43,969 nt of DNA from positions 1 to 43,969 of the IMG/VR virus record IMGVR_UViG_3300046458_000019. One strand, written 5' to 3'. This stretch comes from a virus. A model generated the notes under the pieces. It searched no databases and was not told where the DNA came from. It saw nothing but the letters and a program-made list of their open reading frames with translations. The translations under genes were made by a program, and so were the position numbers. Positions 4,377-35,999 of this stretch are shown here, one piece after another. How positions within the stretch are numbered: the first letter of the stretch is position 1; the number at the start of each line of letters is the position of its first letter.

Positions 4377-4835
4377 CTACAGCCGCCCTGTCACCACGCG
4401 CCCAGGCTGGTAGACCACGCGGCCGACGATACTCATCTGGACGCTGCGCACGTTGATCGGCTTGAAGGCCGGGTTCACAAAGCTCATGAACCACTGCCCA
4501 CCGCGCTCGACCAGTTGCGCTATACAGGCCTCTCCATTCCAGTTGAGCGCGTAGACGTCCCGGCTTCTACGCAGAGTGTCGGCCGTATCGATTACGATCC
4601 AGTCGTCCTCAAACAACATCGGCTCCATGCCCTGATCGCGCGCGCGAAGTGCCAGCAACTGCTGAGGGTCAACGCGAAGCGCCCGCACGGTCGAGGTGGG
4701 CATTAACAACGGCTCAGTGGTTCTCAGCTCCGGCTCGGCCTCAAAGCCCGATACGCCAGCGCGTAGTCGCAGGGTCACTCGCCGGATCGGTGTGAAGCGA
4801 GCAGCGGAATAGTCGGTATCGATTGTCATAAGCAT
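4377..4835 (-). CDS. S24 (LexA/CI C-terminal) domain protein lacking the catalytic dyad
   Basis: The 152-residue protein aligns by eye with the C-terminal domain of CI-like repressors: RVTLRLRAGVSGF near 19-31, MEPMLFEDDWIVIDTAD at 70-86, VYALNWNGEA at 94-103 and SIVGRVVY near the end. There is no DNA-binding domain. The usual catalytic Ser of the SMEP motif is Gly69, and the usual Lys of the VIKRL segment is Ala106, so self-cleavage or UmuD-like proteolysis should not occur. It may be a dimerisation partner, a decoy for RecA or another regulator, or a decayed gene. The start follows GGAG. It lies between the lipoprotein and Arc-like genes on the same strand. Confidence 0.7.
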   Translation of the reverse strand: MLMTIDTDYSAARFTPIRRVTLRLRAGVSGFEAEPELRTTEPLLMPTSTVRALRVDPQQLLALRARDQGMEPMLFEDDWIVIDTADTLRRSRDVYALNWNGEACIAQLVERGGQWFMSFVNPAFKPINVRSVQMSIVGRVVYQPGRVVTGRL

Positions 4836-4854: not shown

Positions 4855-5079
4855 TCAGCTTTGGCGATCTATCAGCTGTTGGAGCATTCTCTTTAACTCC
4901 GCGTTTTGCTTAGCAATATCGCTAAGTGCCACAGATTCGGCATGCGCTCGTAGCCGGTGGATGATCTCTTCGTTCGCAGACCGGCCGGCAGCTGCAGCCG
5001 CCTCATTTATTTCATCCTGGAGGTCAGGTGGTAGGCGCAACGTTTTCTTTGTTCTTTGTTCTTTGCTGGATGTGCTCAT
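4855..5079 (-). CDS. Arc-like ribbon-helix-helix DNA-binding protein
   Basis: The 74-residue product has a basic N-terminus, the strand-helix-helix pattern KTLRLPPDLQDEINEAAAAA (residues 11-30), then GRSANEEIIHRL, and a C-terminal coiled coil (AELKRMLQQLIDRQ). This is the Arc/MetJ fold (Arc family, PF03869), which binds operators as dimers through the N-terminal strand. The ATG at 5079 fits the family length better than the upstream ATG at 5148. A palindrome at 5118-5139, just upstream, is a plausible autoregulatory operator. Confidence 0.75.
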   Translation of the reverse strand: MSTSSKEQRTKKTLRLPPDLQDEINEAAAAAGRSANEEIIHRLRAHAESVALSDIAKQNAELKRMLQQLIDRQS

Positions 5080-5117
5080 CGCGCGATTGTTGCGCAACAG
5101 CAAACGAAAAAACCACT

Positions 5118-5139
5118 GTGGTGCCACATTTGCCACCAC
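5118..5139. promoter_or_regulatory. Inverted repeat upstream of the Arc-like gene, possible operator
   Basis: GTGGTG and CACCAC form a perfect six-base inverted repeat with a ten-base spacer, 39 bases upstream of the Arc-like start. Ribbon-helix-helix proteins bind such dyads. The assignment rests on position only. Confidence 0.45.
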
Positions 5140-5342
5140 GAAAAACAACGGTTATGCTTGTACCATATTTACCCATGAGCCCGACTGGTCCATTCTGCAG
5201 AATGTTACCAAGCGGCACGTGTTCCGAATCTTGCAGCTAAACGGCGGCCGAAGGCAGAAAATTTACGTGGTTGGAACAACCCGAAAAGCATATAGTTATT
5301 TCTAATTGGCAAGACACGGCAGCCGAACACTGGCATAAACTA

Positions 5343-5358
5343 CTGTATGCGTGTACAG
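5343..5358. promoter_or_regulatory. LexA box 1 (SOS operator)
   Basis: CTGTATGCGTGTACAG is a perfect CTGT-N8-ACAG LexA site, extended on both sides to TACTGTA/TACAGTA. A TATAAC-like -10 at 5363-5368 follows. The first rightward gene after it is the 68-residue gene at 5460. The Arc-like gene diverges leftward about 260 bases away. Confidence 0.75.
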
Positions 5359-5459
5359 TACTTATAACGCGACAGATAGCCGAGCTCGGAGCCCTACAGT
5401 ACTAAAGCGCACCGCTGGCGGCTAAAAACAACAGCAGGAATACTCCGGACGGAGGAACA

Positions 5460-5666
5460 GTGGAACAGCAGAAGATAGAACAGACAGACCGCCGAGCCGC
5501 GATGCTTGAGGCCTTTGACAGTATGAGCGATGAGTCTCAGATTGATGCGCTCTGCATGTTGCAGTCGATCGCCCTCAGCTCGCCTCGGCGATCTACGGCC
5601 GGGCTACGCCTTGTCGCGAGCAGCAACGGTGACGGCTTTAGGAAGTCCGCGAGCGGCGGCCAGTAA
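5460..5666 (+). CDS. Small LexA-box-controlled gene, candidate antirepressor
   Basis: A GTG at 5460 preceded by GGAGG opens a 68-codon frame beginning MEQQKIEQTDRRAAMLEAFD. The first half is helical and acidic and the C-terminus is short and basic. No family is recognised; the helical part loosely resembles C-terminal segments of small phage regulators. A perfect LexA box lies 102 bases upstream. The gene converges on the repressor and overlaps its last 63 bases in antisense. This suggests an SOS-induced product, protein or antisense RNA, acting against the repressor. That function is inference. Confidence 0.5.
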   Translation: MEQQKIEQTDRRAAMLEAFDSMSDESQIDALCMLQSIALSSPRRSTAGLRLVASSNGDGFRKSASGGQ

Positions 5667-6053
5667 AGTTTTTTTCTGGGGTTCTTCGCATGCGCGAAAT
5701 TCGCTTAGCAACTCAGCTTCGCGATCTGTCACCCACTGTAGCGTTGTCTTCGTGGATGGCTCGACAACCCGCAGCCGGGCCTTGTCATCGTCGCGCGCTT
5801 CGCCGCCACCCTCTGTTGGGCTCACCGCTTTCTGTGGTCCGCGCCCTTGTTGCAGCCACAAAAATTCCACGCTGGTCGCATTGGCAAGTGCCACAAGAGT
5901 TGCCGACTCCGGCCCCTTCTTACCCCCGCCCTTCAGGATTCGATTGATGGTCGGCTGAGGCACTCCGCTAAGGCGGGCAAGCTGCGCCTGCGACTCAACC
6001 CTCGCGTCCTTCATAGCCTTATCTAGGCGCCATCCAATTGTATTCATATCCAT
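5604..6053 (-). CDS. Phage repressor (HTH, CI-like, without S24 domain)
   Basis: The 149-residue product has an N-terminal helix-turn-helix (SQAQLARLSGVPQPTINRIL, residues 21-40) and a short helical C-terminus (LQWVTDREAELLSEFRACEE). There is no LexA/CI autoproteolysis domain. The HTH protein, the divergent Cro-like gene and three intervening operators identify it as the maintenance repressor. The start at 6053 lies at the expected transcription start of the candidate PRM promoter and has no ribosome binding site, so a leaderless mRNA as in lambda cI is likely. Met codons at 6062 and 6047 are alternatives. The 3' end is overlapped by the LexA-box gene on the other strand. Confidence 0.8.
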   Translation of the reverse strand: MDMNTIGWRLDKAMKDARVESQAQLARLSGVPQPTINRILKGGGKKGPESATLVALANATSVEFLWLQQGRGPQKAVSPTEGGGEARDDDKARLRVVEPSTKTTLQWVTDREAELLSEFRACEEPQKKTLLAAARGLPKAVTVAARDKA

Positions 6054-6060
6054 GGGGCGC

Positions 6061-6089
6061 ATTATCCGTGCGCGTATAGAGGTACACAA
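6061..6089 (-). promoter_or_regulatory. Candidate PRM promoter of the repressor
   Basis: On the minus strand TTGTGT (6089-6084) and GATAAT (6066-6061) are 17 bases apart. Transcription would begin near 6054, at the repressor ATG. Operator OR-1 overlaps the -10, which would give negative autoregulation. Confidence 0.6.
6063..6078 (+). promoter_or_regulatory. Operator OR-1
   Basis: TATCCGTGCGCGTATA matches the 6118-6133 operator at 15 of 16 positions. It overlaps the -10 of the repressor promoter. Confidence 0.7.
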
Positions 6090-6094
6090 ATTTC

Positions 6095-6110
6095 TATCCG
6101 TTCAGGTATT
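6095..6110 (+). promoter_or_regulatory. Operator OR-2
   Basis: TATCCGTTCAGGTATT matches the 6118-6133 operator at 13 of 16 positions. It lies between the two divergent promoters. Confidence 0.65.
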
Positions 6111-6137
6111 GCGAATCTATCCGTTCGCGTATATCCT
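6109..6137 (+). promoter_or_regulatory. Candidate PR promoter
   Basis: TTGCGA (6109-6114) and TATCCT (6132-6137) are 17 bases apart. Initiation would fall at or next to the Cro-like ATG at 6144, which has no ribosome binding site, so this message may also be leaderless. Confidence 0.5.
6118..6133 (+). promoter_or_regulatory. Operator OR-3 (reference copy)
   Basis: TATCCGTTCGCGTATA is an imperfect palindrome with symmetric TAT, CG, CG and ATA positions. It lies in the -35/-10 spacer of the candidate PR promoter, and all other operator copies were compared with it. Confidence 0.75.
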
Positions 6138-6143
6138 GTCAGT

Positions 6144-6359
6144 ATGGACAAAGACATCTCGACCCTTCTAAGGGAAATCAAGGCGGCTACAGGTTGGAGC
6201 GAAACGCGAATAGCGTCGGAGCTGGAGACCTCTCAGCCAACAGTCAATCGAATCCTGAACGGACAGTCGCAGTGCCTCAGTAGCACGATGGCCGCTATTA
6301 GTCGCCTGCATCTTCGTCACTGCCGTAGACACCCTCAGCGTCGCCAAACGGACGCTTAA
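6144..6359 (+). CDS. Cro-like HTH repressor
   Basis: The 71-residue protein has an HTH (ETRIASELETSQPTVNRILN, residues 20-39) whose recognition region QPTVNRIL closely matches QPTINRIL in the divergent repressor. Both should read the same operators. The basic tail (RHCRRHPQRRQ) is unusual. The gene is divergent from the repressor and is the first gene of the rightward transcript. Its role would be to shut off PRM and tune early transcription. Confidence 0.75.
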   Translation: MDKDISTLLREIKAATGWSETRIASELETSQPTVNRILNGQSQCLSSTMAAISRLHLRHCRRHPQRRQTDA

Positions 6360-6514: not shown

Positions 6515-6955
6515 ATGAACGTCCAAGACGCCTTTTACGAAACCGTACGCAATGCCCCTGGCGGCTGCGCTGCCCTGGCTGTTCGTCTGGGAATGTCGGC
6601 TGCTGTGCTGCGCAACAAGGCTAATCCGAACAACCTCGGCAACGTGGTCTCGCTCGACGACGCAGACCGCGTCATGGCCCTGACTGAAGATTACTCGGTC
6701 CTCCACGCCCTTGCTCAGGCCCATGGCTTCGTCTGCACCAAGATCGACGAACAGCCAGCCGACGACATGGCGGTGCTCGAATCCGGTAGCGCGGTTTGGG
6801 CGTCGGTCGGCGCTCTGGGGGCTGCGGTTCACCAAGCACTGGCCGACGGCAAGATCGATCGACACGAAGTGAAGGCGATCGAGACTGCCACGTTTGCCGC
6901 ATTTCGCCCCATGATGCAGCTGCTGGCCCGCGTGAATGGGATGGCCGAGAAATGA
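6515..6955 (+). CDS. Phage regulatory protein, CII family (CP76 type)
   Basis: The 146-residue protein begins MNVQDAFYETVRNAPGGCAA and contains the SAAVLRNKANPNN segment (residues 29-41). These are hallmarks of the phage regulatory CII/CP76 family (PF06892), HTH-containing regulators of the lysis-lysogeny decision. A region near 70-76 (HALAQAH) and a helical C-terminus complete the usual length. The ribosome binding site is weak. Its stop overlaps the next start (ATGA). Possible targets are an integrase or repressor-establishment promoter, which I could not identify. Confidence 0.75.
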   Translation: MNVQDAFYETVRNAPGGCAALAVRLGMSAAVLRNKANPNNLGNVVSLDDADRVMALTEDYSVLHALAQAHGFVCTKIDEQPADDMAVLESGSAVWASVGALGAAVHQALADGKIDRHEVKAIETATFAAFRPMMQLLARVNGMAEK

Positions 6956-35152: not shown

Positions 35153-35209
35153 GAGGAGAAGCGTACCGGACCGGTGCAAAACAGCGTTGAGCAATGGCAG
35201 TTTGATATA

Positions 35210-35225
35210 CTGTATATAAACACAG
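35210..35225. promoter_or_regulatory. LexA box 2 (SOS operator) upstream of imuA
   Basis: CTGTATATAAACACAG is a perfect CTGT-N8-ACAG site inside a longer AT-rich dyad (TACTGT...ACAGTA). It ends 18 bases before the imuA ATG and lies between divergent genes. Confidence 0.8.
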
Positions 35226-35243
35226 TATTTCATTGCGTCAACC

Positions 35244-35999
35244 ATGAGCCAATTACCGCCCGTCGCCGAACTCGAGCAGTTGCACCCGTCACTCTGGCGG
35301 GCTTCGCAGCTTGCACGCAGTCGTGCGCGGTGCGTCGATACAGGTCACCCGGCGCTGTCAAACCAGCTGCCGGGCGGCGGGTGGCCAACGGGAACACTCG
35401 TCGACCTTCTTGTGCAGCAACCAGGAATAGGGGAGATGCGCTTGATTGCGCCGGCGCTGGCAAAGGTTGCCGATCGGCGCGTGGTGTTTCTGACGCCGCC
35501 GCATGCGCCCCAAGCCTTGGCGCTCGCCGCACTGGGCATCCCTCCTGCCTCGGCCATCTGGCTGCGTGCCGATCGCGCGGCGGATGCACTGTGGGCTGCG
35601 GAGCAGGTGCTGCGCAGCGGGGGTTGCGGCGCCTTGCTGTTCTGGCCGGGACAGGGATCGACAAGCAGCACGCGGATCCAGCACGTGCGCGCCGACAGTC
35701 TGCGCCGCTTGCACCTTGCTGCTCAGCAGGGCGAAACGCTGTTCTTCAATATGCGCCCGTTGGCTGCCGAGGTTGATGCTTCGCCGGCACCGCTGCGTTT
35801 GAGCGTGCGGCCGGCGCCTGGCGGGATCAATATCGGGTTCGTAAAGCGGCAGGGACCGCAGCGGGATGAGCCGCTGTTTCTGCCGCTGTCAGTCGGGCCT
35901 GCGCATGTGTTCAAGCCGCAGCGGCCGGCGGTTCCCGAGCACGCAAAGACCGTGGTACCGGCAGCGTCTCAGGGCGGCAAAATCGTTTCCGCAACCTAA
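35244..35999 (+). CDS. imuA: ImuA-like translesion-mutagenesis protein (orphan)
   Basis: The 251-residue protein matches the ImuA/SulA-like (RecA-fold) family along its length: LHPSLWRASQLARS (about 12-25), TGHPALSNQLPGGGWPTGTL, a degenerate P-loop QPGIGEMRL, WLRADRAADALWAAEQVLRS, CGALLFWPGQGS and RLHLAAQQGETLF. In bacteria ImuA works with ImuB and DnaE2 in SOS mutagenesis. No imuB or dnaE2 lies here, so host partners would be needed. A LexA box directly upstream indicates SOS induction. The last codons coincide with an integrase arm-type site. The gene sits at the right prophage end beside attP, a typical place for acquired cargo. Confidence 0.85.
   Translation: MSQLPPVAELEQLHPSLWRASQLARSRARCVDTGHPALSNQLPGGGWPTGTLVDLLVQQPGIGEMRLIAPALAKVADRRVVFLTPPHAPQALALAALGIPPASAIWLRADRAADALWAAEQVLRSGGCGALLFWPGQGSTSSTRIQHVRADSLRRLHLAAQQGETLFFNMRPLAAEVDASPAPLRLSVRPAPGGINIGFVKRQGPQRDEPLFLPLSVGPAHVFKPQRPAVPEHAKTVVPAASQGGKIVSAT

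Follow-up and report, generated by a model that had tools for sequence, protein, structure and literature searches.

The stretch of DNA analysed here (the window) is a single virus record of 43,969 bases, which encodes an integrase, a CII-like regulator and replication genes. Two convergent genes are at the centre of the locus: an HTH repressor on the minus strand (5604–6089), and a small gene of 68 codons on the plus strand (5460–5666) that runs antisense into the repressor's 3' end, the two sharing 63 bases (5604–5666), exactly as originally predicted. On the other side of the repressor lies a divergent gene for a Cro-like HTH protein (6144–6359, plus strand; domain and family matches), followed by the CII-like regulator (Phage_CP76, E 4.5e-36; 6515–6955, plus strand). 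Three operator-like repeats of 16 bases each, TATCCGTKCGCGTATA, start at 6063, 6095 and 6118 (6063–6133), between the repressor and the Cro-like gene; the region is therefore an ordinary immunity region. Since one operator copy occupies 6063–6078, the true start of the repressor is likely the ATG at 6053.

The repressor matches HTH_3 (E 4.9e-8) and no S24 domain was found in it, as had been claimed; that is, the combination seen in the self-cleaving S24 class—HTH and S24 with a Ser-Lys dyad in one protein—is absent. The original prediction overlooked a nearby gene for an orphan S24-fold protein (4377–4835, minus strand), which lies close to a gene for an Arc-like ribbon-helix-helix protein (4855–5148, minus strand; domain and family matches) on the far side of the LexA box. 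We considered the orphan as the missing protease and rejected it: motif inspection shows that, in the window and in 16/16 close relatives (L005–L020), the catalytic Ser is replaced by Gly (QGMEP or similar) and the catalytic Lys by Gln, Ala, His or other residues, and so the orphan supplies no obvious protease. Judged by these motifs, the orphans are a non-cleaving S24 family; a distant relative (L021) is a full HTH-S24 repressor with dyad motifs.

An SOS motif for the likely host was derived from imuA loci. The phage carries its own imuA (35244–35999; NCBIfam NF033429), whose closest counterparts are the imuA sequences of Massilia (82% to one MAG) and further Oxalobacteraceae, and we infer that Massilia/Oxalobacteraceae is the likely host group. 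A CTGTN8ACAG box lies upstream of imuA in 71 of 80 imuA loci, nearly always in the form TACTGTN8ACAGTA, and 70 of these host-group boxes were used to train a weight matrix. The phage imuA is itself under a LexA box (35208–35999), and its direct neighbour is the integrase gene rather than imuB. Its nearest relative, in a Massilia MAG (L029), also has a LexA box as well as a tRNA-like sequence nearby, and perhaps marks a prophage end. ARAGORN additionally called a 97-base tRNA-Phe in the early region of the window phage (11763–11859, plus strand), which is likely spurious.

The perfect LexA box that had been claimed upstream of the small gene is present: its core, CTGTATGCGTGTACAG, occupies 5343–5358, and its full form, TACTGTATGCGTGTACAGTA, 5341–5360. 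The bare CTGTN8ACAG core is only mildly unusual, because two copies are seen in the window versus 0.55 expected from shuffling. On the host-group imuA matrix, however, the 5341 box scores 27.4, while no site in any of 60 simulated windows exceeds 3.6; the box therefore agrees with the SOS motif seen in the presumed host group. A box occupies the same place, ahead of the small gene, in five relatives (L001, L003, L004, L024 and L027). Between box and gene lies a leader of ~100 nt (5361–5459, plus strand) with a GGAGG ribosome site at 5451–5455; the distance from box to start is 99–102 nt in five close phages (the window included) and 121 nt in L003. Promoter and terminator scans were uninformative, and the LexA box coincided with no sigma-70 match.

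Several observations indicate that 5460–5666 is a real gene that makes a protein. Firstly, relatives lie at the same place in L001 (79%), L004 (about 71–72%), L024 and L027, with a diverged one in L003, and the GTG start and ribosome site—the latter part of the original prediction—are preserved in all five close phages (again counting the window). Secondly, outside the overlap substitutions are mostly synonymous, with dN/dS values of 0.06–0.10 in the pairs where the ratio is estimable; differences amount to 0.57 at third codon positions, versus 0.26 and 0.17 at the other two. The earlier remark was that the protein matches no recognised antirepressor of the Gifsy kind; Pfam, PHROG and NCBIfam searches gave no match, and among GenBank phages neither the small protein nor, at the DNA level, the region has a relative. 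Distant family members were missed by single-sequence and early-alignment searches of viral and genome collections, and a genome search with a more diverse alignment (A8) gave a weaker result. A profile search of genomes nevertheless recovered a broader family whose short proteins share the pattern LLxAFRxMDxxxQ...PRRxxPxLRLV; some are encoded convergently with HTH repressors and some in tandem arrays.

The original prediction had called for profile and structure searches with the small protein. Foldseek with the small-protein model returned zero matches, and PDB profile searches with either the repressor tail or the small family gave only weak matches to unrelated proteins. Comparison of family profiles gave a link that the original prediction had not seen: the small family resembles the C-terminal tails of the very repressors with which it is paired. 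Comparison of the two by hhalign gave a probability of 93.8% (E 1.7e-7), with a score of 32.7 versus maxima of 15.4 in 300 column shuffles and 16.2 in 300 shuffles that keep the hydrophobic pattern, and 7.3 with a reversed profile. Free-standing family members alone gave 94.3% against the tails, and a second profile comparison of small family and tails 91.2% (E 1e-6). In the converse search, a profile built from repressor tails alone matched a small-family protein among 5976 ORFs (E 1.5e-6). Pairwise BLAST of the small protein against the repressor found no match, and within the second subfamily alone (see below; S2 vs C2) tail homology was not detectable (0.06%); the homology is thus remote and rests on the broad family.

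Predicted structures are consistent with this likeness. AlphaFold models the small protein as a helical hairpin (residues 2–20 and 24–40; pLDDT about 90) followed by a disordered tail containing the LRLV motif, and the repressor C-terminus (residues 117–150; 5640–5741, minus strand) as a corresponding hairpin (residues 122–132 and 136–147), with modest confidence for the whole repressor (pLDDT 67.7). Foldseek matches of the repressor model include the SinR/SinI complex 1b0n, though via the HTH part. By profile and predicted fold, then, the small protein and the C-terminal helical hairpin of the repressor itself are distant homologues, and this resemblance suggests a mode of action.

Comparison of related loci indicates that the small gene is inherited together with the tail. 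Between the window and L004, the HTH is 36% shared, the tail core 89% and the small protein about 71–72%, while between the window and L003 the corresponding values are 63%, 23% and 33%; a further pair (G390 vs G382: HTH 33%, tail 67%, small protein 58%) repeats the window–L004 pattern. Across 15 pairs, with overlap regions largely omitted, divergence of the small protein follows that of the tail (partial Mantel r 0.71, p 0.0005) rather than that of the HTH (r 0.11, p 0.22). The antisense overlap physically links small gene and tail, and so by itself favours joint inheritance.

Among repressor-selected loci, a convergent small gene accompanies 20/20 hairpin-tailed repressors and 0/26 repressors with S24 or another C-terminus. 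A Fisher test of this contrast took 27 non-tail loci where the count is 26, and its value is descriptive only, since the loci are related and some were used in profile training. A second subfamily serves as a natural control. Its 12 members (G227, L159–L168 and L172) have a different HTH, and tail, small gene and upstream LexA box are present in 12/12; in G227, one of the seven exact SOS boxes in the 5.8-Mb genome is the one that precedes the small gene. Two other loci have the same HTH type: L169 carries an S24 domain in which the dyad motifs are intact (GESMEP and VVKRM) and lacks the small gene and LexA box, and L170 carries another C-terminus and lacks tail, small gene and LexA box alike. 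The overlap of small gene and repressor recurs at about 20–30 bases in other loci and at about 30–50 bases in the second subfamily.

A LexA box is absent from seven pairs of tail and small gene (G390, G382, G203, G292, G213, G108 and G359), although most of these genomes carry the same SOS box elsewhere, and LexA control is therefore common but not universal. In one further locus (G165) a weak box lies at the right place (score 8.5).

The wider family shows other arrangements. In L110, L113 and L152, two consecutive small-family ORFs face one repressor, and the LexA box is absent though these genomes use it elsewhere. In L127, L133, L135 and L153, two tandem HTH repressors have related tails, and it is the second whose 3' end the small gene overlaps. 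Finally, L111, L114, L115, L116, L118 and L120 contain free-standing tandem arrays of small-family genes, away from any repressor, and in consequence not every family member need be an antirepressor of its neighbour. The members of such arrays are possibly decoys for other repressors.

The homology between small protein and repressor tail suggests a SinI-like mechanism under LexA control: the small gene probably encodes a decoy antirepressor that is produced upon LexA removal, forms hetero-oligomers with the repressor and thereby releases lysogeny. The LexA box, the coding selection, the conserved arrangement, the likeness of small protein and tail and their joint inheritance are seen in the sequences; that LexA binds, that the repressor oligomerises through its tail, that the small protein pairs with it and that induction follows is what we infer. 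The events proposed are these. In the lysogen, host LexA would hold the 5460 gene off, while the hairpin-tailed repressor, acting at its three operators, would keep the lytic promoters silent. DNA damage would remove LexA, and the 68-residue protein would be made. Its hairpin would then take the position of a second repressor subunit at the repressor tail, and this mixed pairing would break the active repressor oligomer, as SinI does to SinR, freeing the lytic promoters. The original prediction of a LexA-controlled antirepressor for a non-cleavable repressor thus emerges as the best supported of the readings compared, because relatives keep box, small gene and tail together, and repressors whose DNA-binding domain is related but that end in S24 or another C-terminus lack the small gene.

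Four other readings were weighed. The one that survives best, though we regard it as unlikely, is that a LexA-driven antirepressor binds some other surface of the repressor, such as the HTH, or marks the repressor for proteolysis, in either case without mimicking the tail. The C-terminal part of the small protein, with LRLV, is also conserved, and in the available part of PMC3121763 the LexA-controlled antirepressors of Gifsy phages are not described as copies of their repressor; however, such a reading does not account for the profile homology and corresponding hairpins shared with the tail, or for a small protein that tracks the tail and not the HTH. It is considerably less probable that the small protein acts as a co-repressor or modulator, entering mixed oligomers so as to tune operator binding or later to stop repressor synthesis, without being an inducer. 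Any mixed oligomer is compatible with the tail homology, and phage MOR proteins work jointly with their CI (PMC7250872), but LexA control would place synthesis at induction, and the small gene is absent beside tail-less or S24 repressors.

Very improbable, in our judgement, is an antisense RNA that targets the repressor mRNA at its 3' end, with the ORF incidental. The original prediction had left open whether the antirepressor is a protein or an antisense RNA; the overlap (63 bases here, about 20–30 in other loci) would allow the latter, but strong codon-level selection outside the overlap argues for the protein and leads us to reject RNA as the main product, the family also occurs free-standing without an antisense partner, and repressor protein already present would stay. 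An antisense effect in addition to that of the protein is possible. Just as improbable is a gene with some other SOS role (for example on LexA, RecA or cell division) that neighbours the repressor through linkage alone: free-standing tandem family members would suit it, but not the strict association of the gene with a single type of repressor C-terminus, whichever of two unrelated HTH types the repressor carries.

If the small gene is indeed a tail-related decoy under LexA control, it offers a concrete account of DNA-damage sensing by prophages whose repressors cannot be cleaved, in which the inducer is apparently related to the repressor's own tail rather than being an unrelated antirepressor. 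A broader reading, towards which we lean only slightly, is that in prophages of Massilia relatives the hairpin tail and its convergent, often LexA-controlled, decoy gene form an exchangeable cassette that replaces S24 self-cleavage; joined to unrelated DNA-binding domains, it would provide one induction device for many immunities and could act between tail-sharing prophages. Recurrence of the pair with different DNA-binding domains predicts that the tail determines specificity, and that tail-sharing prophages may trigger one another's induction. The arrangement also provides a sequence rule by which overlooked induction genes could be located: a hairpin-tailed HTH repressor plus a convergent small ORF. 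Such genes may escape annotation, being short and partly shared with a second gene.

How does this system compare with those already known? SinI and the C-terminus of SinR are related helical hairpins. In Bacillus subtilis, SinI binds SinR and disrupts the SinR tetramer to give a heterodimer (PMC6123443). As in SinI/SinR, a small protein here would oppose an HTH repressor to whose tail it is related, and homology of the small protein to the C-terminal hairpin of its putative target is found (hhalign 91–94%, shuffles and predicted hairpins). The differences are that SinI/SinR is not a phage switch and lacks LexA control, while the small gene here is convergent with, and overlaps, its repressor. 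Scanning 20 small-family members (E up to 10) gave no match to the Pfam SinI model; the small protein is thus a SinI analogue, and no member of that family.

The locus shares with LexA-controlled antirepressors a host-type LexA box upstream and a repressor without a self-cleavage domain. The precedent that the original prediction drew from Gifsy-type prophages holds, in that PMC3121763 describes LexA-driven antirepressors of non-cleavable repressors in Gifsy phages. Gifsy GfoA and GftA, together with Fels-1 FsoA, are small and LexA-controlled, like the role predicted here; they were compared with the small protein via PHROG families alone, none of which it matched. The Gifsy LexA operon (a dinI homologue, then the antirepressor) differs in position, being housed in a module of its own at a distance from the repressor. 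Two further antirepressors, Tum of coliphage 186 and that of N15, are likewise tied to the SOS response (cited in PMC10432266), and both are set apart from the small protein by description: Tum by a DinI-like part that is split off in relatives (PMC3121763), and the N15 antirepressor by control through a small processed RNA (cited in PMC10432266).

Some small phage proteins inactivate a cognate repressor, among them those of the Silpe/Bassler modules (Qtip and smORF72; PMC10432266, PMC11323111), but these are SOS-independent, lie beside a transcription factor, target self-cleaving repressors and have little or no homology to each other. In the CI-MOR systems of TP901-1 and phi13, a small phage protein binds CI (PMC11149083); MOR, however, is divergent from CI and occupies the Cro position (PMC7250872), while the window has a separate Cro-like gene. 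We found no report in the open-access literature of an antirepressor homologous to its repressor's own tail. An antirepressor that resembles the repressor's tail, is encoded against it and is exchanged with it as a cassette appears to be new.
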